Origin: Mycobacterium sp. KBS0706
GTDB taxonomy: Bacteria > Pseudomonadota > Alphaproteobacteria > DSM-16000 > Inquilinaceae
Direction: 5' to 3'
Assembly: GCF_005938675.2 (NCBI RefSeq)
Contig: NZ_VCCH02000013.1
Coordinates: forward strand, 1 to 64,000
DNA: 64,000 nt
Part shown: piece after piece, positions 1,907 through 16,833 of the stretch
Numbering within the stretch: position 1 is the stretch's first letter
Layout of the letters: each line of letters begins with the position of its first letter
Position numbers and translations under genes: made by a program
The notes under the pieces: generated by a model
What the model was told of the DNA's origin: nothing
The model's input: the letters and a program-made list of their open reading frames with translations, nothing else
The model's database searches: none

Positions 1907-3205
1907 TTACGGCTCCGTCTGGTCCACCCGCACCAGCACCTTGTCGATGCGGTTGCCGTCGAGGTCGATGACCTCGTAGCGCACGCCGTTCTCGGTGAAG
2001 CTCTCCGCCACCTTCGGCAGGTGGCCGAGGTGCCAGAGCACGAAGCCGGCCAGGGTCTGGTAGTCGCCGTCCTCCGAACGCAGGCCGCGCAGGCGCAGCA
2101 GGCGCTCGACCTCGTCGATCGGGATCATGGCGTCGACCAGCCAGCTGCCGTCGTCGCGCCGGACGATCGAGTAGCCGCCGGCGATGTCGGTCAGGTCGGC
2201 CACCTCGCCGGCGATCGCCGCCAGGATGTCGCTCGGCGTCACCAGCCCTTCGACGCTGCCGTATTCGTCGACCACCACGGCGAGGTGGATCGGCGCGCTG
2301 CGGAAGGTGGTCAGCAGCTTCAGCGCCGGGGTGCCGTCTGGCACCACCAGCGGCGGCCGCATGGTCTCGGCCACGTCGAACGGGCCGCCGCCGAGCATGC
2401 GGTCGAGCAGGTCCTTGGTCTGGATCACGCCCTCGAGCTCGTCCAGCGAGCCGCGTGCCACCGGGAAGCGGCTGCAGCCGCTTTCGGCGATGGTCCTGCG
2501 GATCTCGTCCGGGCTGTCCTCGAGGTCGACCCAGACCATCTCGTGCCGCGGTGTCATGATCGACCGCACCGACCGGTCGGCCAGGCGCAGCACGCCGTCG
2601 ATCATCTCGCGCTCGGCCTCGACGAAGACGCCGGCCTCGGTGCCCTCGGCGATCAGTGTCTTCACCTCCTCCTCCGTCACCGTCTGGGCGGGGACGGCGG
2701 AGACGCCGAGCAGGCGCAGCACCAGCTCGGTCGAGCGCTGCAGCAGCCAGACGATCGGGGCGCCGACCGCCGCCACCATCTGCATCGGCCGGGCGACGCG
2801 GGCGGCGATGGCTTCGGCATGGTTCAGCGCGATCCGCTTCGGCACCAGCTCGCCGATGATCAGCGAGAAATAGGTGATGGCGACCACCACCAGGGCGAAG
2901 GACAGCTCGTCGGCCCAGGGGGCCATCCCGGGCAGGGTGACCAGCCAGTCGCGCAGCGGCACCGACAGGGTGGCGCCGCCGAAGGCGCCGGCGAAGATGC
3001 CGATCAGGGTGATGCCGACCTGCACGGTCGACAGCAGGCGATTGGGGTCCTCGGCCAAGGCGAGGGCGGCGCGGGCGCCGCGATGGCCCTGTTCGGCCAT
3101 GCCCTGCAGCCGGGCGCGGCGGGCGGAGACCAAGGCCAGTTCCGACATCGCGAAAAAGGCGTTGATCAGGATGAGAGCCACGACGATGACGAGTTCGACG
3201 ATCAT
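1907..3205 (-). CDS. HlyC/CorC-family membrane protein (CNNM transmembrane domain + CBS pair + CorC domain)
   Basis: This 432-residue integral inner-membrane protein belongs to the family linked to magnesium/cobalt efflux (CNNM/CorC; also annotated hemolysin-like). The N-terminal DUF21/CNNM domain has a first helix (IVELVIVVALILINAFFAMSE) with the conserved SELAL(V)SARRARL, then LSTVQVGITLIGIFAGAFGG and further helices to about residue 190. A CBS pair follows (about 200-330, with IMTPRHEMVWVD and VVVDEYGSVEGLVTPSDIL). A CorC-HlyC domain (DGSWLVDAMIPIDEV and on) closes it. Length and order are typical. The ATG at 3205 has no strong Shine-Dalgarno. Before the element integrated, this gene would have lain about 160 bp downstream of folE on the same strand. 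Confidence 0.9.
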   Translation of the reverse strand: MIVELVIVVALILINAFFAMSELALVSARRARLQGMAEQGHRGARAALALAEDPNRLLSTVQVGITLIGIFAGAFGGATLSVPLRDWLVTLPGMAPWADELSFALVVVAITYFSLIIGELVPKRIALNHAEAIAARVARPMQMVAAVGAPIVWLLQRSTELVLRLLGVSAVPAQTVTEEEVKTLIAEGTEAGVFVEAEREMIDGVLRLADRSVRSIMTPRHEMVWVDLEDSPDEIRRTIAESGCSRFPVARGSLDELEGVIQTKDLLDRMLGGGPFDVAETMRPPLVVPDGTPALKLLTTFRSAPIHLAVVVDEYGSVEGLVTPSDILAAIAGEVADLTDIAGGYSIVRRDDGSWLVDAMIPIDEVERLLRLRGLRSEDGDYQTLAGFVLWHLGHLPKVAESFTENGVRYEVIDLDGNRIDKVLVRVDQTEP

Positions 3206-3366: not shown

Positions 3367-3396
3367 TTACACCGGCATCCCGATCATCATCTGGAA
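3367..3396 (-). pseudogene. Displaced 3' end of folE (last nine codons plus stop)
   Basis: Read on the minus strand this encodes FQMMIGMPV followed by TAA. Those are exactly the last nine residues of the folE product at 13508-14146, which ends with the same peptide but TGA. Three of the nine codons differ at the third base. It is the original host folE terminus, cut off from the gene by insertion of the element. Confidence 0.9.
3371..3396. repeat. attL: direct repeat of the folE 3' end
   Basis: The 26-bp stretch matches 13512-13537 at 24 of 26 positions and is in the same orientation. The 14 bases atcatcatctggaa (3383-3396) are identical in both, so strand exchange must lie within or beside them. 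Sequence similarity ends abruptly to the right (tggcgggt against ctcgcgcc). Confidence 0.88.
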
Positions 3397-3529
3397 TGGC
3401 GGGTCAACCGGAGAGCCGCAGAAATCCTAGGTTCCCGACATCGTCGGTCCCCACCCGGTGGTACACCCGGAGGGCATGGAAGGCAACCCGCAAGAGGCCC
3501 GTGAGAGGGCCAGTACAGGAGTTGCGACC

Positions 3530-3727
3530 ATGACTGACCACAGCGCCGCCACCGCCCAGGAAACCACCGTCACCGAGGCGACCACGGCTACCGTACCGTG
3601 CCTCGCCCATGGCGGCGATCGGGCCTTCTCCCGAGCCTGCCGGTCCTGCGCCGCGTTCGCATTGACCTGCTTCCCGCCCCATCCGTTGGCCAAGGCCGCC
3701 CCCGCCACCGTGGAGGCTGCCAAGTGA
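3530..3727 (+). CDS. Small Cys-containing hypothetical protein
   Basis: I do not recognise this 65-residue product. A Thr/Ala-rich N-terminus is followed by four cysteines (24, 37, 40, 47), in an arrangement C-x12-C-x2-C-x6-C that could bind a metal, and then a Pro/Ala-rich tail. The ATG at 3530 lies downstream of AGGAG. The stop overlaps the GTG of the next small membrane gene (GTGA), so the two are probably co-translated. It is the first gene inside attL. Being so short, it rests on the Shine-Dalgarno and the coupling rather than on homology. Confidence 0.55.
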   Translation: MTDHSAATAQETTVTEATTATVPCLAHGGDRAFSRACRSCAAFALTCFPPHPLAKAAPATVEAAK

Positions 3728-3870
3728 TCGCAGGCGGCATCGCTCCAATGGCCCTGGCGTTCGTGCTGGGGCTGTTCCTCGGGACCGGCGTCGGGTGCCT
3801 GATCGTGTCGCTATGCGTCGCAGCGGCGCGCAGCCCACAGGCCGAGCCCCCGAGGAGGTCAGGGCCGTAG
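3724..3870 (+). CDS. Small single-pass membrane protein (48 aa)
   Basis: GTG start at 3724, overlapping the preceding stop by four bases. Residues 7-35 (APMALAFVLGLFLGTGVG and on) form one hydrophobic helix with Gly spacing, followed by a short Pro/Arg-rich cytoplasmic tail (EPPRRSGP). A hairpin terminator follows about 30 bases later, so the 3530-3870 pair forms a small transcription unit at the left end of the element. Function is unknown. Single-helix peptides of this size are frequent in phages and islands. Confidence 0.55.
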   Translation: MIAGGIAPMALAFVLGLFLGTGVGCLIVSLCVAAARSPQAEPPRRSGP

Positions 3871-3901
3871 CAAAGCCCATCAAGTGCTAGACGAGCACCG
3901 G

Positions 3902-3931
3902 CGGCGTCCCTCACGGGGCGCCGTTGTGTTT
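3902..3931 (+). terminator. Rho-independent terminator after the small gene pair
   Basis: A nine-pair stem (cggcgtccc / ggggcgccg, one G-T pair) with a tcac loop is followed by ttgtgttt. It closes the plus-strand unit and faces the end of the convergent minus-strand gene. Confidence 0.7.
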
Positions 3932-3936
3932 CAGCC

Positions 3937-4509
3937 TCACCCCTGCTTTGGCTCGGTGGCAATGGCGCGGAGCTTCGGGAGCAATTGGTCCGCCATGGCC
4001 TGGGCTTCGGCCCAGACTTGAAGCTCCTCCTCGACTAGTTCCAGCTTTCCGTCTGGCGCCAGTGCATCGAACCTGCCCCGCTCGACCTCTATCAGCGTCG
4101 TACGAACACCAGCAATCCAGGTGTAGAGCCGAGCGAGATCGGACGCCACGGGGCCGAGAATGCCGATATCCGCCATGCGGGCCTGAGCAATGGGAAACGG
4201 ATCAAGCGGCCCCTCATCGGCCCGCAACCAGCCCCCGATTGGAACACCATCGATTGCAAGCTGCCTTCTGATGCGCTGCGCCCTCTCCACATGGCCCCTC
4301 CGGTGGACGATGGCGAAGTAGCCTTCCAGTTCTGCTGCCAGGGCCGCTGCAAGCCCCCTGCGGTTCTCTTCCCGGTCCCGCTCCGCAAGCTCCCGCTGGC
4401 TCCCGTGCGCAACACGCGCCCCGACCCACACACCCAGAATGCCGATCCCGCCAGAAACGAGCGCGGACAGCAACTCGGATGCCCATCCAGGTAGATCCCC
4501 ACCGCCCAT
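3937..4509 (-). CDS. Hypothetical membrane-anchored protein
   Basis: I do not recognise this 190-residue product. It starts MGGGDLPGWASELLSAL and has one membrane helix (about residues 9-32, ALVSGGIGILGVWVGARVA). A basic and acidic helix follows (SQRELAERDREENRRGLAAAL), then a soluble, helix-rich domain to the C-terminus (QVWAEAQAMADQLLPKL). The layout of one N-terminal anchor plus an amphipathic helical bundle is common in island-encoded proteins of unknown role. The start at 4509 is chosen for the GGGGAGGGG eight to ten bases upstream; an in-frame ATG at 4563 lacks such a site. Confidence 0.6.
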   Translation of the reverse strand: MGGGDLPGWASELLSALVSGGIGILGVWVGARVAHGSQRELAERDREENRRGLAAALAAELEGYFAIVHRRGHVERAQRIRRQLAIDGVPIGGWLRADEGPLDPFPIAQARMADIGILGPVASDLARLYTWIAGVRTTLIEVERGRFDALAPDGKLELVEEELQVWAEAQAMADQLLPKLRAIATEPKQG

Positions 4510-4648
4510 GCTGGCGCCCCTCCCCAAGGCCACGACTGGGTGACTGTACGCGACACCGAGCATGAGGCGGTAGGGAAGCCCCAGCGATCACGGGCGATCC
4601 GAACGGCCCCGGTGGGGCTGCCCCGGATGGTGCCGTCGAGAGGCAGCT

Positions 4649-4723
4649 TCACGCCCAGACCAGGGACAGAAGCAGGAGGATGACGACCATGTGCTTGAGC
4701 GCGATTTCGATGGTGATCTTCAT
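4649..4723 (-). CDS. Tiny membrane peptide (24 aa)
   Basis: ATG at 4723, with AAGGGC a few bases upstream. The peptide is MKITIEIALK followed by a hydrophobic stretch rich in V, I and L (MVVILLLLSLVWA), giving one short membrane helix. It resembles the 34-residue peptide at 6036-6140 in plan: a polar beta-like N-terminus with an ITxxI pattern, a run of aliphatic residues and a C-terminal W-A(-L). The shared plan within one element argues that both are real. Function is unknown; a membrane anchor or small regulator is possible. Confidence 0.45.
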   Translation of the reverse strand: MKITIEIALKHMVVILLLLSLVWA

Positions 4724-5061
4724 GATGCCCTTGCGTTGCGGCTAAGTGCCAATCCAGGCGTCGCACGATCGCGCCACCCACTTCATAGAGCCGGCATGAT
4801 AAGTCAAAAACAAGTATTTAAATTGGAAAATTTGCTCTCTTTGTGGATAACCCACGCGATAGGCCAGTGAATACCCAGTGAAGAAACGGTGGTTATTTTC
4901 CATGAGCCGCAGACTTGCGCGCCCTTCATGTCACAGCCGGGAGGAGCACGAGCAACCGCGCCCTGAAGGCCGCCCCTTAACACCCTCAAAACACTTGCAA
5001 ATGCCCAGCGGCGCGCGCTTAGCTGAATACGTTTGGATCAGCCATTGTTCAGGTGATTGTC
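4724..5061. other. AT-rich non-coding segment with a perfect DnaA box
   Basis: No gene is seen. The AT-rich part (about 4796-4860) is exceptional for this GC-rich genome and contains tgtggataa at 4842-4850, the exact complement of the DnaA consensus TTATCCACA. The segment lies between divergent genes (a tiny membrane peptide to the left, the lipoprotein to the right), so it must also hold promoters. Confidence 0.5.
4842..4850 (-). promoter_or_regulatory. DnaA box (exact consensus)
   Basis: The plus strand reads tgtggataa, which is TTATCCACA on the minus strand. It is embedded in an AT-rich stretch of the integrated element. Confidence 0.55.
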
Positions 5062-5514
5062 ATGAAGACCAATTGGCAGGCCTCAGCCGTCCTCGCGGCG
5101 GTGACCCTTGTAGCGTCGTGCTCGATACAGCGAGCCGAGACCGCATCCACTGCGCAGAAGCAGATGGTCGGGATGTCGCGAGAGCGCGTGCTTGCGTGCA
5201 TGGGTGTGCCGGCAGCGCGGCTGGCCGAAGGCAGCACCGAGGTGTGGACCTATGGCTCCGGAGGCCGCACCGATACCTTCGCCGCAGGCACCTCGACCAC
5301 GACCGCGAGCGCAATGGCTTACTCGTCCGGGGTCGCCACCGGGTTCGCCACCACCAACAGCTTCGGCTCCAGTTCTACCCGAGCCCGCTATTGCGTCGTC
5401 AACGTGGTGATGATCGGGGGACAGGTCTCGGCGGTGAACTACGCTGGCCCTACCGGGGGACTTCTCACGCGAGGCGAACAGTGCGCCTACGCGGTCCAGA
5501 ACTGTGTCCAGTGA
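5062..5514 (+). CDS. Small outer-membrane-type lipoprotein
   Basis: The 150-residue product has a lipoprotein signal: MKTNWQASAVLAAVTLVASC, with lipobox VASC and the lipidated Cys at residue 20. Next comes a motif typical of small alphaproteobacterial lipoproteins related in pattern to BamE/SmpA (VGMSRERVLACMGVPAA ... STEVWTYGSG), then a Ser/Thr/Ala/Gly-rich segment and a C-terminal beta-like part with three cysteines. The ATG at 5062 follows AGGTG; a GTG three codons earlier is possible. It is transcribed away from the AT-rich DnaA-box segment. The precise role is unknown. Confidence 0.7.
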   Translation: MKTNWQASAVLAAVTLVASCSIQRAETASTAQKQMVGMSRERVLACMGVPAARLAEGSTEVWTYGSGGRTDTFAAGTSTTTASAMAYSSGVATGFATTNSFGSSSTRARYCVVNVVMIGGQVSAVNYAGPTGGLLTRGEQCAYAVQNCVQ

Positions 5515-5538
5515 AGCACAGCAGCGCGCGGCGGGAGC

Positions 5539-6039
5539 CTAGAGATCCCCTGTAGGGGCCACGAGAAGGGCCGCGATCTGATCCCCGCTCAGGGCATGGG
5601 CGGGGGACCTCAGGAGGGCTTCGGCGATGCGCTCCACGGCGGGCCGGTGCCGGTTCAGAAGGTCGCGAGCGATCTTCTCCGCTGCCCGCCACTCTCCGAC
5701 CTGGGCCTCATTATCGTCGGGGAAGGCCGCCTCCAGTTCGTCATGGATCTTCCTCCAGTCTCTCGCCGCAGCCATGTCGTCGCCCTGGGCTTCGATCTCC
5801 GACAGGTTCGCCCCCAGGTCGCCCGCGTGGAGCATCACAAGATGGTCCCGAAGGGTCACGCAGGCCGGTGGCGCTGCCTCCGTCGATCCGGACCAGTCGT
5901 CAGGGCTGATCCGCGCGGCGCCCAGCGTCCACCCCATCAGGTGGGCGGCAACGACATGCCCCGCCTCGTGCCAAGCGGTGCGACGAAGCTGGGGAACGAT
6001 GGTTTCCATGGCGCGGCCCTCTGCGAGATCCGGGGTCAT
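5539..6039 (-). CDS. Stand-alone M41 (FtsH-like) peptidase domain protein
   Basis: The 166-residue product contains the zinc-binding HEAGH at about residues 24-28, followed by VVAAHLMGW as in the FtsH protease domain. A candidate third ligand is in EAQGDDMAAA (FtsH has a comparable acidic GxxxD segment). The C-terminal helix pattern ARDLLNRHRPAVERIAEALL resembles the end of FtsH M41 domains. There is no AAA+ ATPase domain and no membrane segment. The ATG at 6039 overlaps the stop of the upstream 34-residue membrane peptide gene (ATGA), implying coupling; an internal ATG at 6009 with AGAGGG before it is the alternative. I infer a small metallopeptidase. Its substrate is unknown. Confidence 0.75.
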   Translation of the reverse strand: MTPDLAEGRAMETIVPQLRRTAWHEAGHVVAAHLMGWTLGAARISPDDWSGSTEAAPPACVTLRDHLVMLHAGDLGANLSEIEAQGDDMAAARDWRKIHDELEAAFPDDNEAQVGEWRAAEKIARDLLNRHRPAVERIAEALLRSPAHALSGDQIAALLVAPTGDL

Positions 6040-6140
6040 AGCGCCCAGAACAGCAGCAGTAGCACCACCACCGCCACGACGAAGCGGGTCAAGCGCTCAC
6101 CACCGATGCCGACGGTGATGCTGAGATGGAGGTGGCCCAT
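6036..6140 (-). CDS. Tiny membrane peptide (34 aa), coupled to the M41 peptidase
   Basis: ATG at 6140, with a perfect AAGGAG seven bases upstream. The peptide starts MGHLHLSITVGIGGER and ends in one hydrophobic helix (FVVAVVVLLLLFWAL). Its stop codon overlaps the ATG of the peptidase gene. A good sigma70-type promoter lies 50-75 bases upstream. Promoter, Shine-Dalgarno and coupling together make it convincing despite its size. FtsH normally joins a membrane anchor and an M41 domain in one chain, so this pair could be a split membrane-tethered peptidase. That is inference only. Confidence 0.7.
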   Translation of the reverse strand: MGHLHLSITVGIGGERLTRFVVAVVVLLLLFWAL

Positions 6141-6188
6141 GCCGATGCTCCTTGGATGTTCTTCGCCTGAGGGCGAGCGGCGGGCCGC

Positions 6189-6217
6189 AATATAATACAG
6201 CTCACGACAATTTTCAA
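6189..6217 (-). promoter_or_regulatory. Sigma70-type promoter for the membrane peptide / M41 pair
   Basis: On the minus strand TTGAAA (complement of 6212-6217) is separated by 17 bases from TATATT (complement of 6189-6194). Each box matches the consensus at five of six positions. It reads toward the start at 6140. Confidence 0.6.
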
Positions 6218-6235
6218 TATATTCGACTATGTGTG

Positions 6236-6244
6236 TTATCCACA
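6236..6244 (+). promoter_or_regulatory. DnaA box (exact consensus)
   Basis: ttatccaca is an exact match to the DnaA 9-mer, in the AT-rich stretch 6188-6260. It is the second exact box in the element; the other is at 4842-4850 in the opposite orientation. Confidence 0.55.
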
Positions 6245-6982
6245 ACATTTCGTTACTGATGTGGCGGATAGCACACATGCCGACCGCACCCCACAGATAC
6301 TTGCACCGATTGAGAAGAGGCCACTTTAAACTGCCACCGCACCTCCGGAGACCCTCAAGGTGCCCGGATGGAAACTGGAAAAAAATTCGAGGGGGCATCG
6401 AACATATAGAGAAGGGCGGGCTTCCCCCCGTAGGGGGGCGCGTCCAGCGCCCTGGGAAGAGGTCGGCCACTGCGGACCTCATGGCCCCGCGCGGGCTCGC
6501 TCGGTGCCCGTGAAGGGAGCAAGAGGCCGGCCACGGCCGAGCCAAGGCACGGTCCATCCATCCGGGAAGGCCCGTTGCCCCAGTGGCCATGGGCCACCAA
6601 GCGTCACGGAAGCGCCTAGGTCGGCCGCTCTTGCCCGCCGCTACCTCACAGCCTAGGCCAGCCTGCTGCCGCCTGTCCGGGGCACCCTCGCCGCTGCTCC
6701 TGCTGCTGCCCTGGCGGCTGCCCACCCTGGCTCGCGGTGGCCGCCCGGACACTTGAGCCGAGGGGATGATCCCCGCGCGCTGTACCGGCCGGGTCATCCT
6801 TTCAGGCAGTGCCCCAGTTTTGTTTCAATATGTTACAATCGCCTGACAAATTAATTGTGCACACATCCTCAGCGACCCGCCAGTGACCCCACCACATGGC
6901 GGGTCGCCTCATGTTCGGGCCGTGACGAGCCGCGGGGCCGAGGGCTGCCGCTTCAGGCTGCCTGTTCACAATCGACCGGTTT

Positions 6983-7065
6983 CGGACACCTCCTCCAGCC
7001 CTGTCCGTAAAGTAGACTTGACACGATTCTGGGCATGTCCATATCCTGAGGCACCTTTACGGACA
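6983..7065 (+). promoter_or_regulatory. Resolvase promoter and candidate res site
   Basis: TTGACA (7018-7023) and TATCCT (7042-7047) with an 18-base spacer form a promoter toward the resolvase. It is enclosed by a perfect 11-bp inverted repeat: tgtccgtaaag (7002-7012) and ctttacggaca (7055-7065). A further cggaca half-site is at 6983-6988. Repeats enclosing the promoter directly upstream of a serine resolvase are the usual place for resolvase binding, so both recombination and self-repression are likely. Confidence 0.65.
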
Positions 7066-7082
7066 CCCCAGGGGGATCGACC

Positions 7083-7670
7083 ATGACCGCGACCACCACC
7101 CGGACCTTCGCCTATCTCCGGGTCTCGACCACGGACCAGACCACCGAGAACCAGCGCCAGGAGATCGAGGCTGCCGGCTTCAACGTCCAGCCCCGCCGCA
7201 TGGTGGCCGAGACCGTGTCGGGCAGCACCAGCGCATTCGAGCGGCCCGGCTTCGCCAAGCTGGTCGACCGGCTGGAGGCTGGGGATGTCCTGGTGGTCAC
7301 CAAGCTGGACCGCCTCGGCCGGAACGCGATGGATGTCCGGGCCACGGTCGAGCGGCTGGCGGGGATCGGCGTCAAGGTCCACTGCCTAGCCCTCGGTGGT
7401 GTCGATCTGACCAGCCCGGCCGGGAAGATGACCATGGGAGTGATTGCCGCCGTGGCCGAGTTCGAGCGTGATCTACTGATCGAGCGGACGCAGGCGGGAT
7501 TGGTCCGGGCCAAGGCCGAAGGGAAGACGCTGGGGCGGCCCCACGGGCTCACCGAGGTGACCCGGAAGGAGATCGCTCAGAAGCTCACTGAGGGCGCGGC
7601 GGTGGCGGCCCTGGCCAGGGAGTACGGGACGAGCCGCCAGACCATCATGCGGTGCAGGGACGCGGCCTGA
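7083..7670 (+). CDS. Serine recombinase (resolvase/invertase family, ParA-like)
   Basis: The 195-residue product has the catalytic-domain start FAYLRVSTTDQTTENQ with the nucleophile Ser15, then SGSTSAFERPGF, the arginine motif LVVTKLDRLGRNAMD, the ALGGVDLTSPAGKMTM segment and the FERDLLIERT helix entry. A C-terminal helix-turn-helix follows (ALAREYGTSRQTIMRCR). Length and order are those of plasmid multimer-resolution resolvases such as ParA of broad-host-range plasmids. The ATG at 7083 is preceded by GGGGGATCGACC. In the element it would resolve multimers or replication intermediates, which implies an autonomous circular phase. Confidence 0.92.
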   Translation: MTATTTRTFAYLRVSTTDQTTENQRQEIEAAGFNVQPRRMVAETVSGSTSAFERPGFAKLVDRLEAGDVLVVTKLDRLGRNAMDVRATVERLAGIGVKVHCLALGGVDLTSPAGKMTMGVIAAVAEFERDLLIERTQAGLVRAKAEGKTLGRPHGLTEVTRKEIAQKLTEGAAVAALAREYGTSRQTIMRCRDAA

Positions 7671-8322
7671 GGCCCTGAAGCTCGCTGAAGCTCGCGAATG
7701 CCGGACACTTATGCCCCCTGCCCAGCCCTGTAGCTCGCGAAGCTAGCGGCTGGTCCCCGTGAGGATCGCGCCGAGGCTCGCCCTGCGGGCTACGCGGGTT
7801 TCTCGTTGTGGGGCTCTGGGGCCATCGCGCGCCCGTCAAGGGCACTGGACAGAGGCCCCGGATGGGCTTCGACCGCAGCGGCCCCCTGGCCTGCGCAGAG
7901 GCACTGAGCATGCTCCTCAGCGATCTCAGCTAAGCCCATCAAAGAACTAGAGAATTCGCCTTCCGGCTGGAATTACCCGACACTTATCCTCCCGGAAGCG
8001 TCGATCGATTAGGTGGGACTTATGCCCCAAGGGACGGTCGCTCCGTCTCCGGCGGGCTGGTCCTGCGGCTGTGTCGCATGGCGATCCTCTCACGTGGTGG
8101 TGATGGCACCGCCCTCGGCCGTTGATGGTCGGGGGCGGGATGCCGCCGCCACCGCCGCGAAGCTCCACGATGTTCCCTGTCTCACGGGGTGTCTGGACGG
8201 AGTTTTCGCAGGAGGAGGGGGAGCGGCGCCCTTCCCCGTCACGCCACCCAACGGCCCCCAACGCCCACCTTCATCAACCACCTAACCGGCCCGCCCTGAG
8301 TGGCTCGCCGAGGAGACCACCC
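7671..8322. other. Non-coding stretch between resolvase and polymerase-like gene
   Basis: No supported gene is seen. It holds three short related motifs, ggacacttatgcccc (7703-7717), gacacttatcc (7979-7989) and gggacttatgcccc (8015-8028), and a cggaca half-site (7702-7707). It also holds agcccatcaaagaactaga (7933-7951), similar to agcccatcaagtgctaga at 3875-3892. The Shine-Dalgarno of the polymerase-like gene (AGGAG) is at 8311-8315. Confidence 0.4.
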
Positions 8323-9666
8323 ATGCCCAAGCCACTCTGGGGCGAGGACGCCGCTACGCGCACCCGCCTGTTCGAACCGTATCGTCTGCCCATCACGGCC
8401 CCTTCCCGTGCCCTGGCAGACACCTGTTGCGCCCTGATTGAGGCGGAGGAGGAGAAGCACCGGTTGCGGAAGCGCGCCCGCCGGCCCGCTGATCGAAACA
8501 CATTCCGGTCCCTGGTCGCCGCCCTGGTCGCCGATCTGGCCTACCGCTGGCTGGAGACCGGAGGAGAGGAAGTCGCTGATGGTGATGGCGTCTGGCTGCC
8601 CGCTGGGCTGCGGCTGTCGCTGAGCCGCGATGCCCTCGGTCGCCGCTCTGCCCGCTACGTGCCGTCCTGGCTGGGCGTGACCCTGCGCGACATCATCGCT
8701 GTCATGGCCCGGCCCGACGTGGCCCTCGCGTCCCTCGAAGTGGGCGCCTGGGGGACCGATCACGGCAAGGGTACGCTGTCCATCATCCGGCCCGGACAGG
8801 CGCTGATCGCCCTGTTGGAGGAGGCCGCCTTCCCAGGGATCGGCTTCCACGACCTAGGCTTGTGTCCCACCGCTGAAGTCGTCTTGCTCAGGGCACCCGA
8901 CGCCTCCTTCTGGGACCGTGGGAAGCTGGTCGACTACACCGACGATGCCGAGACCGATCGCCTCCGGGACGAGGTACGGAGCATCAACACGTGGCTGTCG
9001 CGGGCCGACATCACTGTCCTCCGGGAGCACCCTGGCGCAGGTCGTGTAGACCCAAGCCTTCGCAGGATGCGCCGCTGCTTCAACCGCTCGACATTCCAGT
9101 CAGGCGGACGGCTGTTCGGGGGCTTCTGGCAGCCGATGACCAGGGAGGAGCGGAAGGCGATCCGCCTCGACGGGGAGGAGACCATCACCCTCGACTACGG
9201 CCAGATCGGACCACGCATCCTCTACGGCATGGCCGGTCAGGTACCCCCAGCGGGAGACCTTTACAGCCTCCCGATGCTCGACGGACAGCATCGGGATGGC
9301 GTGAAGAAGCTGTTGGCCGCTGCCTCCTTCTACGAGGGCAACGGCAAGCCGATGAAACGACCGCCCGATGGCTGCCCAGAGCTGTTCCCCGAAGGGTTGA
9401 CCATCAGGGCGATGCTCACGGCCATTGAACTGGCCCATCCGGGGCTGCGACCGCTGCTCTACCGGGGCCTTGGTCATCAGGCCCAGCGCACCGAGAGCGA
9501 CATCCTCGTGGCTGTGCTGCTGAAGCTGCAGGCCATGGGCATCACGGCACTGCCCATCCATGATGCTGTCATCGTCCCCAGGTCCACCGCAGATGCCGTC
9601 GAGGTGGTGATGCGGGAGACGTTCAGGGAGATCACCCGGCTGCCCATCCAGGTGAAGCGAGAGTGA
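8323..9666 (+). CDS. Putative family A DNA polymerase-like protein (replicase candidate)
   Basis: The 447-residue product carries the three palm motifs of family A polymerases in order. Motif A is LDYGQIGPRILYGMAG (Asp291); compare DYSQIELRxLAHxxG in Pol I. A motif-B-like helix is HRDGVKKLLAAASFYEG (323-339, R324, K328/K329), and motif C is LPIHDAVIVP (Asp414). The second acidic residue of the usual HDE is Ala here. The first 280 residues show no 5' or 3' exonuclease motif, and the spacing between motifs is compressed. The ATG at 8323 follows AGGAG by seven bases; the frame extends further upstream without support. Similar motif patterns occur in hypothetical proteins of rhizobial islands, as far as I recall. 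A priming or replicative polymerase is my inference. Confidence 0.6.
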   Translation: MPKPLWGEDAATRTRLFEPYRLPITAPSRALADTCCALIEAEEEKHRLRKRARRPADRNTFRSLVAALVADLAYRWLETGGEEVADGDGVWLPAGLRLSLSRDALGRRSARYVPSWLGVTLRDIIAVMARPDVALASLEVGAWGTDHGKGTLSIIRPGQALIALLEEAAFPGIGFHDLGLCPTAEVVLLRAPDASFWDRGKLVDYTDDAETDRLRDEVRSINTWLSRADITVLREHPGAGRVDPSLRRMRRCFNRSTFQSGGRLFGGFWQPMTREERKAIRLDGEETITLDYGQIGPRILYGMAGQVPPAGDLYSLPMLDGQHRDGVKKLLAAASFYEGNGKPMKRPPDGCPELFPEGLTIRAMLTAIELAHPGLRPLLYRGLGHQAQRTESDILVAVLLKLQAMGITALPIHDAVIVPRSTADAVEVVMRETFREITRLPIQVKRE

Positions 9667-9861
9667 GCCCTGGGGAGAAGATCATCATCAGTCTCCCTTC
9701 GATCAGCACCGTATGGAGGCTGGCGCCTCTACTCCTTCCCTTCGGTCACACCTTCCAGCAGTGACACAGGGGATGGTGCCTATACCTTCACGGCCACCCT
9801 ACTACGGGGATCGTAATTTCTCGCAGTTCTCTGCGGGTTTCAGCCCATCCAGTCCGTATAC

Positions 9862-9894
9862 AGCCCGCCCGGCAATGGCTCGGCGGGCTTCTTC
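9862..9894 (+). terminator. Rho-independent terminator after the polymerase-like gene
   Basis: Perfect 8-bp stem agcccgcc (9862-9869) / ggcgggct (9882-9889), followed by tcttc. It lies about 200 bases after the stop at 9666. Positions 9667-9861 show no gene. Confidence 0.6.
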
Positions 9895-9950
9895 ATGCCC
9901 ACCCACCGCCACCTTGCCGGCCTCTGCCGAGCCTCCAAAGGATCAACACC

Positions 9951-10310
9951 ATGCCCATCAGCCTCCGCAACCGGGGCGAGTTTCACCGCTGGCAGGGGAG
10001 CAGGCCCACCAGCGCGCCCGTTCACAGCACCGCCGAGGTGACCCGCACGACCACCCTCCCCGGCGCGATCACGATCACCGTCAAGGCCCTGGCCGAGATC
10101 CTGTCGGATGGGACCATTGGCGCCGGTACGGCCGTGGCCTGGGAACTGTCCGACCGGCCGGCGCTTGGCCCCGAGACCGAAGACGGGCGTTTCTACGATG
10201 CCTTCGCAGAGGCCGTTGAGGGCGCCTGGGGGGAGGCGATGCAGGATGCCCTTTCCCGTGGCCCGGCAGCGCCCAGGACGGGCGATCTGCCACCGCCGCC
10301 ACCTGCGTAG
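9951..10310 (+). CDS. Hypothetical protein of the element (119 aa)
   Basis: I do not recognise this product. It starts MPISLRNRGEFHRWQG, has a beta-like stretch (TTTLPGAITITVKALAEIL), an acidic middle (DRPALGPETEDGRFYDAF) and a Pro-rich end (LPPPPPA). No signal or membrane segment is seen. The ATG at 9951 follows AAAGGA. It lies between two terminators, so it is probably its own transcription unit. Short soluble proteins of this kind are frequent in alphaproteobacterial islands. Confidence 0.55.
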   Translation: MPISLRNRGEFHRWQGSRPTSAPVHSTAEVTRTTTLPGAITITVKALAEILSDGTIGAGTAVAWELSDRPALGPETEDGRFYDAFAEAVEGAWGEAMQDALSRGPAAPRTGDLPPPPPA

Positions 10311-10364
10311 CCCAGAACACGAACGGCCGTCCTAGCGCGGCCCGCCACGCCCACCACCACCCGC

Positions 10365-10395
10365 AGCCCGCCCGGCATCCCCGAGGCGGGTTTCG
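10365..10395 (+). terminator. Rho-independent terminator
   Basis: The stem gcccgcc (10366-10372) / ggcgggt (10385-10391, one G-T pair) with loop cggcatccccga is followed by ttcgtatt. It follows the 119-residue gene and nearly repeats the stem of the terminator at 9862. Confidence 0.55.
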
Positions 10396-10418
10396 TATTG
10401 AAGAAGGACCACGACACC

Positions 10419-10721
10419 ATGGCGCTACTGCGCATTGACATCGCACGCCACCACCGCCCCCGCTCCCTCCATCGGGCTTGGGGGATCGAGGACCACGACT
10501 TGAACGCCCTTTGCCGGAAGCTGGTCGCCGCCGGCTACCCGGACAGCCCGGCCTACACCTGGGATGGGACCGGCTACGGCATGCGGATCAAGTCCGTCCA
10601 CCGCTACGCCCTGCTGACCATCCGCGAGGAGACCGGGAACGGCATCCCTCGCTACAGCAGATTTGAGCCATTCGCCGGGCCGCGTAGCGCCCAGGACGGC
10701 CTTCGTGAGGCTGCCGAGTAG
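10419..10721 (+). CDS. Hypothetical protein of the element (100 aa)
   Basis: The product is small, basic and Arg/His-rich at its start (MALLRIDIARHHRPRSLHR). It continues with a helix (LNALCRKLVAAGYPDSP) and a strand region (YGMRIKSVHRYALLTIREE). The combination LCRKLxxAG followed by a beta hairpin is one I associate with hypothetical genes on rhizobial islands, but I cannot name a family. The ATG at 10419 is chosen for GAAGGA upstream. A small DNA-binding or regulatory role is possible. Confidence 0.55.
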   Translation: MALLRIDIARHHRPRSLHRAWGIEDHDLNALCRKLVAAGYPDSPAYTWDGTGYGMRIKSVHRYALLTIREETGNGIPRYSRFEPFAGPRSAQDGLREAAE

Positions 10722-10817
10722 ATCGGTATCCCCGGACCAGAGCGCCTTTCCTATCGCGCCCCTGCACACCCCCATCACCCCACCATCGCGCCAATGAGCG
10801 CGGACAGGAGACACGCC

Positions 10818-11660
10818 ATGAACCTCGACCACACCCAGGTCGGATACCTCCCGCAGGAGGAGCACCAGCGGCAGGCCTCCGCTGCCCCCTCCCGCCGCCG
10901 GAACGTCACCGACGCTGCCCCCGAAGATGCCGGTAAGGGCACCGTAATGGTGCCGCTGGCAGGCACCGACGAGCGCGCCCTCGTGGACCGCGAAGACTAC
11001 GAGGTGCTGATACAGGCCGGCATCTCGCCCTTGTGGGTCAGGAACGACACCGGCAGCGGCCCCGGCAGGAAGCCTGCGGTGAAGGTCTGGCACGGCAACG
11101 GCATGGTCGCTGTCGCTCGGCTGATCCTCAAGGCCGGCTCCCGTGGTCGGGTGGTCTACGGCCCCGGCGGATCGCTCGACCTTCGGCGCTGTAACATCTC
11201 GCTGAAGACGGTCAACGCCCGTGGCGAGGGTGACGCTCGGACGGGTGTCATGCGGAAGCAGGCATGGGCATCCACTGCGAAGGGCCAAGCTCGAAAGCAG
11301 GCGAGGGCAGCGGAGAGGGCGCGGGAGGATGCCGCTGCAGCAGCCTTCAGGGCCGAGGCAGTGGCCCGTTACGACCGCTGGCAGGCGTGGATTGCTGCCC
11401 AGGTGGCAGCCGGCAGGAACCGGCAGCAGGCTGAAGCGGAGGCCATGCGACAGGCCCGAGCGGAGAAGGCGGCATACTGCGCAGAGCATGGGCTTGACCC
11501 GGCCACCGGTCGGCCGCCCAAGCCGGTGAAGGAGGAGAAGGGCACCAATCGGATAGGCACCCCTGCCCAGCCGATCCCCAGCGGCGACCACTCAGTGCAA
11601 GCACCTTGCCTTCAACCGCCCAGGGCCACTGTCGATCCCGCTCAGTTGCCCTTCAGGTGA
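10818..11660 (+). CDS. HNH-homing-endonuclease-like protein lacking the catalytic histidines
   Basis: The 280-residue product has a central segment (about 50-140) patterned like AP2/HNH homing-endonuclease proteins: ALVDREDYEVLIQAGISP, an aromatic/basic strand, MVAVARLILKAG, then YGPGGSLDLRRCNISLKT. In active members that last block reads vDHxNgdxLDNRRxNL. Here the His pair is replaced (VVYGPGG) while L-D-x-R-R-x-N remains. A long Ala/Arg/Gln-rich helical tail (about 155-235) and a Lys/Pro-rich end follow. The start at 10818 follows AGGAG. I infer a decayed or repurposed DNA-binding protein. Confidence 0.55.
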   Translation: MNLDHTQVGYLPQEEHQRQASAAPSRRRNVTDAAPEDAGKGTVMVPLAGTDERALVDREDYEVLIQAGISPLWVRNDTGSGPGRKPAVKVWHGNGMVAVARLILKAGSRGRVVYGPGGSLDLRRCNISLKTVNARGEGDARTGVMRKQAWASTAKGQARKQARAAERAREDAAAAAFRAEAVARYDRWQAWIAAQVAAGRNRQQAEAEAMRQARAEKAAYCAEHGLDPATGRPPKPVKEEKGTNRIGTPAQPIPSGDHSVQAPCLQPPRATVDPAQLPFR

Positions 11661-11669
11661 CGAGCGGAT

Positions 11670-11692
11670 ACCCCCAGGTTAAAACTGGGGGT
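11670..11692. terminator. Hairpin between convergent genes
   Basis: Perfect 8-bp stem acccccag / ctgggggt with a 7-base loop (gttaaaa). It lies just past the stop of the HNH-like gene and upstream of the end of the convergent integrase gene. No T-run follows on either strand, so termination strength is uncertain. Confidence 0.45.
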
Positions 11693-11816
11693 GCTGTGCG
11701 GGCACCTCCCCTCATCAGATGAAGGGTTACCTCAAGAGGAATTTGGGGGAACTGCGGGAGGCCGGTTGGGAGGAGATGGTGTTGACCACCGCTTCCCCCC
11801 TGGCCCCATTCCGGCG

Positions 11817-13424
11817 CTACAGGCCCTCAGGCACCGCGATCCGGCACAGTTGGTCATGCAGCACCTTTACGGCGAAGCCCAGGCCGTAGCCGTCGCCAGC
11901 ATTCCGGCCCGCCTCGTGGCCGAGGATGGCGTCTTGGACGTCCGGAGGTGCGCCGCTGTTGCGAAGCAGATCCTTCATGCGGTGACGCCATGAGTGGTTC
12001 GGCGCGATGCGGGGATCGTCGATGCCCATCCGCTCGACCCAGTGGCGCAGCGTGTTGGCCGCGATGGAGCCGCGCCGGCCGTACCGATCAAGGCCGATAT
12101 CGGGGAACAAGGCGCCGTCCTTCGGGAGCCCTTCGGCGTAGGCGAGGAAGCCTTCAGCGATCAACTTGGGGTGGATCGGAAGACGACGGTGAGATGCCTC
12201 GGTCTTCAGGCTCCTGACGGCTGCGCCGCTGGGGGTTGCCTCCTCACCCTCGCTCTGGTCTTCGGTCACGACGAGGTAGTGGACGCCATCTTGTTCCCGC
12301 AGATCGGAGACCATGGGCTGGGAGACCTCCGAGACCCTGGCACCGGTGAACGCCATGAGCCAAGGCACCCAGCGCAGGTAGCCCGGACGGGATCGGGCAG
12401 CGGTCAAGAGGGTGACCGCTTCAGCATCGGTGAAAGGACGGCGGCCGGTGCCCTTCTTCGCCTTTGCGGCGGGCTTGCGGACGCCAGCAAACGGGTTGCC
12501 TGGGATCAACCCTTCGCCCACCGCATGGGTCAGTACGGTCTTCACCCTGGTCATGTAGGTGCCGATGGTCGAGGGCTTTCGCCCCGCCGCCTGCAGGCCG
12601 GTCTTCCAAGAGACCACGTCGTCCCTGGTCGCCTGTCCGAGGTGGCGGGGAGCGATATGGGCGGCGAAGGCCTCGACCGTCGTCTTGAACTGGTCGAACG
12701 TCTGGGGCTCGGGACGCTGGTCCGCCTGCCAGCCCTTCAGGACCGCATCGGCGGTCACCACAGGCCCCCCGGTCGGGGCTGTGGCAGGTTTCCCTGGCGG
12801 CTCCCATTCAGGGAACCGTTCGAGGCCCCCTGCGGGCGAGAAGTCGCCGCCGTCCTGTCGCGTCGCTGTCCGCAGATGGTCTGCCAGAGCCTTGACCATC
12901 TCCCCGACCAGCAGCCGGCGGGTGGGCTTGTCCACGGTGATGCCTTCATCCGACAGCAGCCGATCGAGGAACGGCCCGACATGCTGTTCGGTCGTGCTAT
13001 CCGCGACCGCATCGGCGAGGAGATCGAGGCCGAGGGCGTTGCCCTCCTCGTTGTCGGGGTGTGCCTCGTAGACAGCCAGCATCTCGCGGAGCCAGCGACC
13101 GGACAGCGCGACGCACTGCCGATAGGACAGCGAAACCGGAGCCCCGTTCAGGGGCCGTTCAGGGAGAGCGACAGGGCCAGCATGGGCGGCAAGCTCCCGG
13201 CGAAGCTGGTCGCACTCCTGGTCGAACCTCAGGGACGCCTCAACGACCGCACGGCGGGCAGCATCAGGGTCTCGGGTGCGGAGGCTGAATGCCTCGTCCG
13301 TCTTCGGCGTGCCCTTGCCGGTGACGAACCGCCCCCGGCCCTGAAGGTCTTTCGGCACCTTCGCCTTGAACCAATACGTTGACCCTCGGCGCTTCAGTCG
13401 GGTATGTCTGGCCACGTCGTTCAT
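11817..13424 (-). CDS. Tyrosine site-specific integrase
   Basis: The 535-residue product opens with the integrase-associated DUF6538-like pattern (RRGSTYWFKAKVPKDLQGRG). A SAM-like core-binding region follows (about 240-330, SWKTGLQAAGRKPSTIGTYM). In the catalytic domain I see Arg363 (TGARVSEV), His477 and Arg480 (HSWRHR), His503 (LGHEA) and the nucleophile Tyr513 (GDGYGLG). The catalytic set is complete. The gene starts 84 bases from the end of folE and points away from it, placing it at the attR end of the element. No excisionase-like helix-turn-helix gene is obvious; the 100-residue protein at 10419 is a candidate only by size. Confidence 0.93.
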   Translation of the reverse strand: MNDVARHTRLKRRGSTYWFKAKVPKDLQGRGRFVTGKGTPKTDEAFSLRTRDPDAARRAVVEASLRFDQECDQLRRELAAHAGPVALPERPLNGAPVSLSYRQCVALSGRWLREMLAVYEAHPDNEEGNALGLDLLADAVADSTTEQHVGPFLDRLLSDEGITVDKPTRRLLVGEMVKALADHLRTATRQDGGDFSPAGGLERFPEWEPPGKPATAPTGGPVVTADAVLKGWQADQRPEPQTFDQFKTTVEAFAAHIAPRHLGQATRDDVVSWKTGLQAAGRKPSTIGTYMTRVKTVLTHAVGEGLIPGNPFAGVRKPAAKAKKGTGRRPFTDAEAVTLLTAARSRPGYLRWVPWLMAFTGARVSEVSQPMVSDLREQDGVHYLVVTEDQSEGEEATPSGAAVRSLKTEASHRRLPIHPKLIAEGFLAYAEGLPKDGALFPDIGLDRYGRRGSIAANTLRHWVERMGIDDPRIAPNHSWRHRMKDLLRNSGAPPDVQDAILGHEAGRNAGDGYGLGFAVKVLHDQLCRIAVPEGL

Positions 13425-13507
13425 GCCCCCGGTGGTACTCCTCAGGGGGACAGACGTGAAGTCGAAAGCCTAGGGAAACCGCCTCTTTCGAGGCTTTCTG
13501 CGGCGGA

Positions 13508-14146
13508 TCAGACCGGCATTCCAATCATCATCTGGAACTCGCGCCGCAGCTGGGAATCGTCGCGGAAGGCGCCGGTCATATAGCTGGTCACCATCTGGGT
13601 GCCGTGCTTGTGCACGCCGCGCGTGGTCATGCAGTGGTGTTGCGACGACACCATCACCGCCACGCCGCGCGGCTTCAGCACCTGGTCGATCGCACCGGCG
13701 ATCTGCGCCGTCAGCCGCTCCTGGATCTGCAGCCGCTTGGCATAGGCATCGACCACCCGCGCCAGCTTCGAGATGCCGATCACCCGCCGGTCCGGCAGAT
13801 AGGCGACATGCGCCTTGCCGATGATCGGCACCATGTGGTGCTCACAATGCGACTCGAAGTCGATGTCGCGCAGCAGCACCATCTCGTCATAGCCCTCGAC
13901 CTCGTCGAAGGTCCGGGACAGGAGATCGACCGGATCCTGATCGTAGCCGCGAAAGAATTCCTCATAGGCCTTCACCACCCGCTTCGGCGTGTCGCGCAGC
14001 CCTTCGCGCGCGATGTCCTCGCCGGCCCAGCGCAGCAGCACGCGCACCGCGTCCTCGGCCTCGGACCGGCTCGGGCGATGCTCCACCGCGCGCGCAGGCT
14101 GGGCTGCGACGTTGGCCGCCACTGGGGTGAAGGGGTTGCGGGTCAT
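13508..14146 (-). CDS. folE: GTP cyclohydrolase I
   Basis: Converts GTP to dihydroneopterin triphosphate, the first step of folate (and queuosine precursor) synthesis; cytoplasmic decamer in known members. The 212-residue chain has the helical N-terminus ([23 protein letters not shown]), the zinc-site motif [21 protein letters not shown], and the second ligand Cys in [12 protein letters not shown]. These are the standard zinc Cys/His residues and the active-site His region. The start at 14146 follows GGAGAAG; a longer reading from 14236 would run to within two bases of apaG and lacks support. Its last nine codons and stop were supplied by the integrated element (synonymous), so the protein is unchanged. 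Confidence 0.95.
13512..13537. repeat. attR: element-borne copy of the folE 3' end
   Basis: Direct repeat of 3371-3396 (24 of 26 identical), inside the 3' end of folE. Bases 13524-13537 are the identical core. Bases left of the core, including the functional TGA stop at 13508-13510, come from the element. Confidence 0.88.
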
Positions 14147-14237
14147 GATGCCGGCTTCTCCGGGCGGTTGTCGTTGACGGTGCTGGTCCAGGTTGCGGCC
14201 GGGAGCCGTCCGGGATCTAGGACTTTGGTCTGTCACG

Positions 14238-16707: not shown

Positions 16708-16728
16708 GAGGGCGCCTCCCCTAAAACT

Positions 16729-16804
16729 GCCATGCCCGGGCTTGACCCGGGCATCCAGAGGATCTCGACGATTCCTGGATTGCCGGGTCAAGCCCGGCAA
16801 TGAC
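16729..16804. repeat. Dispersed palindromic intergenic repeat B, copy 2
   Basis: Same organisation as 1813-1888: a catgcccgggcttgacccgggc hairpin start, a variable centre (gaggatctcgacgattc), then ggattgccgggtcaagcccggcaatgac. It lies between the ends of convergent genes and could serve as a bidirectional terminator. Confidence 0.85.
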
Positions 16805-16833
16805 AGTCAAAGGGGAAGGCGGAGAGCGGTGCT

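Follow-up and report, generated by a model that had tools for sequence, protein, structure and literature searches.

A 10.1-kb integrative element very probably entered the 3' end of folE and completed the gene with a synonymous end

Many integrative elements repair the gene they enter. In the parts of the literature considered here, attP (the attachment site of the element) is said usually to bring replacement sequence for tRNA or protein gene targets, with exceptions (PMC10111431), and many attP sites are described as completing the gene entered (PMC12884075). Figures in the available part of PMC12424338 place 33.8% of TIGER/Islander islands, all integrase types included, in tRNA or tmRNA genes and 43.4% in protein-coding sequences. 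In this study, we analysed positions 1 to 64,000 of contig NZ_VCCH02000013.1 of Mycobacterium sp. KBS0706 (the window) and found a 10.1-kb integrative element that very probably entered the end of folE by site-specific recombination and completed it synonymously. As with islands in protein genes such as icd in E. coli, the attP replacement keeps the target functional; unlike there, the target is folE and only a short stretch is replaced, no more than nine codons plus the stop. Variable regions and islands beside folE have their counterpart in Photorhabdus and Xenorhabdus, at the plasticity site ybhL/folE (PMC3091717, Table 3), for which the section on that site gives neither an att site nor an integrase. 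No report of folE as an attachment site was found among the open-licence papers considered, the TIGER target tables not being searched, in line with an earlier note on this DNA, made from the sequence alone, whose author did not recall folE as a target. The folE target appears new, while the kind of element and the replacement gene end are well known.

The element is bounded by a 26-bp direct repeat that flanks a 10,141-bp segment, with 24 of 26 positions matching and 14 contiguous identical bases. The copy at 3371-3396 reads ACCGGCATCCCGATCATCATCTGGAA, the copy at 13512-13537 reads ACCGGCATTCCAATCATCATCTGGAA, and the identical core is ATCATCATCTGGAA. On the minus strand both copies encode FQMMIGMPV followed by a stop, and they diverge at the third base of the I, G and V codons and in the stop. 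The repeat, the block with its integrase on the folE side and the coding content of both copies had been described in the earlier note, and all were re-found. A 31-letter repeat-related pattern, with up to 3 mismatches allowed, matched only the two att places in the window and gave no match in 100 shuffles of it. The 26-bp pattern, with N at the two differing positions and the same tolerance, was found at three sites in the whole 8.97-Mb genome: both att copies had 0 mismatches and the third site had 3. The folE 3' end as now read, attL (13508-13537, minus strand), is TTCCAGATGATGATTGGAATGCCGGTCTGA, and the flank to its right aligns with congener folE only up to the repeat. By the repeat and the congener alignments, attR (3367-3396, minus strand), TTCCAGATGATGATCGGGATGCCGGTGTAA, is the displaced native end, followed by the native 3' flank.

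The two flanks, joined at the 14-bp core, aligned across the junction to 5/5 congener genomes over 2.8-3.0 kb at 89-93% identity, while each alignment of the unjoined control flanks ended at the repeat or no more than about 15 bases from it. Since the joined flanks align through the junction in all five congeners, empty sites exist in these relatives. In each of them folE (13508-14236, minus strand; GTP cyclohydrolase I, PF01227, E 2.8e-75) is directly followed by its native 3' neighbour (1907-3205, minus strand), labelled CNNM in the earlier note, so the interpretation survived the synteny check by which that note would have refuted it. folE gave a single match in the host genome and a single match in each congener; neither this search nor the pattern search of the genome revealed an assembled empty site in the host. 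In congener G005, 26 of the 28 bases past the folE stop are those found beyond attR in the window, and therefore attR is the native end, as the earlier note had it for the 3367-3396 copy, and attL is the version of the element.

Starting at the I codon, the element (attL) reads ATTGGAATGCCGGTCTGA (ATT GGA ATG CCG GTC TGA) and the native end (attR) reads ATCGGGATGCCGGTGTAA (ATC GGG ATG CCG GTG TAA), with four differences and an identical protein. The probability that four random changes in these 18 nt would preserve IGMPV and the stop is 0.00085, although an ending passed on from a different folE gene would give the same picture. Among the folE tails, that of congener G002 comes closest to the element tail, with 1 difference in 18 positions, suggesting that the element resided in folE before. 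The crossover falls within the shared core, so only the part after it (the end of the I codon, G, M, P, V and the stop) is demonstrably replaced. The synonymous replacement claimed in the earlier note therefore stands, with its nine codons as an upper limit, and the last codons of folE are at least partly element-derived. As predicted from the DNA, the FolE protein sequence of the host is preserved after the insertion, its ending being supplied by the element. The core followed by CGG was found in 5/5 congeners and in none of the 7 folE ends that could be read at 12 loci of other genera in the host family. Members of the genus would thus offer the attachment site; other bacteria perhaps would not.

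The gene adjoining attL (11817-13424, minus strand) has the orientation of folE, starts 84 bp beyond the stop of folE and encodes a tyrosine integrase of 535 aa. The results of the domain searches showed an N-terminal DUF6538 domain (PF20172, E 5.7e-12, 45.6 bits against a cut-off of 27), a match to the PHROG 1 integrase (E 4.2e-31) and a phage integrase domain (PF00589, E 7.9e-6) whose 26.2 bits lie just under the Pfam cut-off of 27.1. With these two domains, one of them sub-threshold, the protein belongs to the DUF6538-type integrases. R363, K407, H477, R480, H503 and Y513, which we take to be the catalytic residues, are all present.

We searched genome_contigs for relatives of this integrase in two scans, of which the first gave 0 loci and the second 32 (L053-L084). 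A same-strand tRNA gene lies upstream in 29 of the 32; none was seen for L054, L059 and L067, and L056 and L067 are on one contig. For this family the statement of the earlier note that most tyrosine integrases target tRNA genes holds, whereas it fails for the TIGER/Islander islands of all types quoted above. With the open reading frame (ORF) taken from the first start codon, the integrase start lies between -49 and +98 bp relative to the tRNA end in 27 of the 29 with a tRNA, a distance to the target 3' end like that in the window; the exceptions, L072 and L079, begin 346 and 1096 bp away. These relatives, by record title mostly from Alphaproteobacteria and at tRNA genes for Leu, Ser, Phe, Asn, Glu, Pro, Val and Met, share family and orientation with the integrase of the window, but the latter targets a protein gene. 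The closest of these genome_contigs relatives (L053, the same element as that of G052) is 36% identical. A more distant relative in G010 also adjoins tRNA-Leu. By this comparison, folE would occupy the place of the tRNA 3' end with the same geometry. In a tree of 30 integrases (without L064, L070, L079 and L084, which are short or truncated; rooted for drawing only), the window and G005 integrases grouped together (100/100), followed by the tRNA-Ser integrase L053 (99/97), and there was one change between tRNA and non-tRNA target states, the three rows without a seen tRNA being uncounted.

The closest integrase found is in congener G005, 67% identical in the alignment (66% by the search tool). 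It belongs to an element of 5,986 bp (locus L039), bounded by the 13-bp repeat TCCCGTGACAGGA, which is unlike the folE repeat, and sitting at an intergenic palindrome shortly upstream of a start codon. The segment upstream of this site matches up to the junction in the host genome and four other congeners, and in 4 of these 5 genomes the sequence was read as continuing through the junction, the far flank lying 6 kb away in G005. The two elements thus differ in target and in most of their cargo and are alike in the integrase and in conserved blocks beside the core, including 38 identical bases, while the cores themselves differ. As a separate observation, this 6-kb insertion (L039 2178-8190, G005 C2) may separate the downstream gene from its promoter.

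Two of the common blocks lie near attR and are identical in the G005 6-kb element by alignment: a 17-bp block, CCTAGGATTTCTGCGGC (3415-3431, minus strand), and a 38-bp block containing GTACCACC (3456-3493, minus strand), which is proposed as an arm site of the integrase. On the integrase side, GGTGGTAC (13431-13438, plus strand) is a second proposed arm site; the window contains just one further exact copy, at 3457, so that each element end holds one. The right arm of the G005 element also contains GGTGGTAC, and the G052 element has two copies at its integrase side. We infer from this placement that the blocks holding GGTGGTAC are putative arm sites.

Several results weigh against folE being the dedicated site of this integrase, or against parts of that account. 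DNA up to 10 kb on each side of the relatives contained no folE (0/32), none of 14 viral folE loci had a DUF6538-type integrase (the profile, made for this family, would not pick up other types), and among the folE loci examined in the host family an integrase of this type lay only at that of the window. A search across the class, with up to 3 candidates scored per genome, gave integrase matches in at least 2 of 385 genomes, one being the host genome. The look for the integrase beside folE elsewhere, suggested in the earlier note, thus brought no second case, and with a single insertion found, folE specificity rests on one integration. The PF00589 score counts here too, as does the distribution of GGTGGTAC, which is absent from the tRNA-adjacent loci L089, L090, L091 and L021; at L039 one of its two copies is outside the G005 element, whose left arm has none. 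Two candidate explanations were rejected: a half-site resemblance between folE and the G005 palindrome (attR matches at 12/16 positions, 1 of 72 such matches in the window, with 14 higher, on both strands) and an element-supplied terminator (RNA hairpins predicted for the element ends did not fold better than shuffled sequence). Finally, the host assembly is 9.8% contaminated and in 449 contigs.

The alternative that survives best, though we consider it improbable, is an integrase of low specificity for which folE is one secondary site of many, the synonymous end having arisen by chance or through earlier history. The single folE insertion and the quite different site of the nearest integrase agree with it, and secondary sites are described for other integrases in the part of PMC10111431 cited above; however, at an accidental site one would not expect a synonymous end that is complete down to the stop codon, and the closeness of the tail to that of G002 points to an earlier stay in folE. 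The element also carries a serine recombinase of the resolvase/invertase type (7083-7670, plus strand; PF00239, E 6.4e-38), full-length over its domain, which could have integrated it with the tyrosine integrase as a passenger. We regard this as more doubtful still: the recombinase is short and lies mid-element, the tyrosine integrase adjoins an att site as in the tRNA-site relatives, and the G005 6-kb element has a distant recombinase (31%) against its much closer integrase and conserved core-adjacent blocks. An assembly chimera joined at the repeat, with the element from a contaminant, would suit the contamination and contig number but is hardly credible, as both junctions with complete repeats lie inside one 120-kb contig, folE is a single match with no empty site assembled, and relatives of the backbone are present in congeners.

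Under the preferred explanation, integration at the folE end, attP of the element would have recombined with an attB made up of the final folE codons, a step most likely catalysed by the DUF6538-type tyrosine integrase, presumably as an active enzyme. As attP would carry a synonymous folE end, the gene would have been completed with an unchanged protein sequence and its native end displaced by 10 kb as attR, and the element would be able to excise. The integrase family being mostly at tRNA 3' ends, the target would have become folE in the clade of the window and an intergenic palindrome in the congener, if the change ran in that direction. The folE integrase would have joined a backbone that adjoins tRNA genes in congeners, so that an integrase relocated to folE seems to sit in a backbone of tRNA type.

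This backbone begins with an 89-aa ORF (3458-3727, plus strand; possible start ATG 3530) with no family match, counterparts of which lie close to the same end of the 6-kb element in G005 and at three congener loci adjoining tRNA genes. After the serine recombinase comes a conserved protein (8323-9666, plus strand) matching PHROG 4756, of unknown function (E 5.4e-26, obtained with the longer ORF 8122-9666). It contains LDYGQIGPR, R...K and HD, which resemble motifs of a small family A DNA polymerase and make polymerase its candidate identity; the copy in the window had no Pfam match, and neither Pfam nor PDB profile searches supported this identity. A polymerase-like protein, to go by these short motifs only, would fit replication after excision. 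Polymerase-like relatives travel with these elements at L089 6790-8412 and L055 14121-15545 (DY...R, R...K and HD motifs). Next are a 119-aa protein (9951-10310, plus strand), for which the tRNA-Leu element of G005 encodes a counterpart with 74% identity over 110 aa, and an HNH/AP2-like protein convergent with the integrase gene (10794-11660, plus strand), with relatives in L089, L091, L040 and L056; of five such members scanned, one matched HNH_3 (E 3e-4), and this was not the copy in the window. The accessory ORFs, none with a family match, are one that looks membrane-anchored by eye (3937-4563, minus strand), one that looks lipoprotein-like by eye (5053-5514, plus strand) and one with an HEAGH motif, which we take to be zinc-protease-like (5539-6039, minus strand).

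The same gene order (89-aa ORF, resolvase, polymerase-like, 119-aa, HNH-like, integrase) was found in a second G005 element (L089, 4088-12433, G005 C1), whose integrase abuts tRNA-Leu and which has a 17-bp repeat 8.3 kb apart; it differs from the window element in its target and in its integrase, which is 26% identical. Partial backbone sets lie near tRNA-Gln in G001, with a 27-bp repeat over 14 kb, and in G004, where neither a repeat nor an integrase was found in the 16 kb examined. At the G001 locus (L090, G001 C2), the 27-bp sequence at tRNA-Gln occurs three times, at 1219, 1389 and 15535, an arrangement suggestive of tandem att sites flanking a 14-kb element. The distribution of the backbone points to an integration module exchanged between elements, in a direction that we infer. 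Tentatively, and with rather less than even confidence, a family of ~8-14 kb elements in this genus (polymerase-like, HNH-like, resolvase) might switch target by swapping integrase and att module, the folE clade keeping its arm sites while the core changes from tRNA to a protein gene or an intergenic palindrome. Such a backbone family is apparently undescribed, papers not having been searched for the backbone.

Family scans covered nine element ORFs (Pfam), the element ORFs against PHROG and seven further window ORFs. Most ORFs matched no family and not all were scanned; within this scope there were no relaxase or conjugation genes and no capsid, terminase or tail genes. None of 9 ORFs matched PADLOC defence genes. 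The size would fit a phage satellite like the phage-inducible chromosomal islands (PICI). A viral origin was rejected: viral_contigs gave one 25% match and none with wider alignment, the folE-end pattern was absent there, and none of 7 phage records covered 80% of the integrase. A plasmid origin was likewise set aside, all 47 plasmid records being below 60% identity.

If the folE site is borne out, folE would join the genes that serve mobile elements as harbours, in a case where the way an element keeps its target gene intact can be followed base by base. The 67% identical pair of integrases, with different cores and conserved neighbouring blocks, offers a natural comparison for the residues behind target choice, and the folE site could offer genetic tools a landing site specific to the genus. 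Outside the element, a 79-bp repeat with 89% identity was observed at 1811-1889 and 16727-16805, on either side of the element region.

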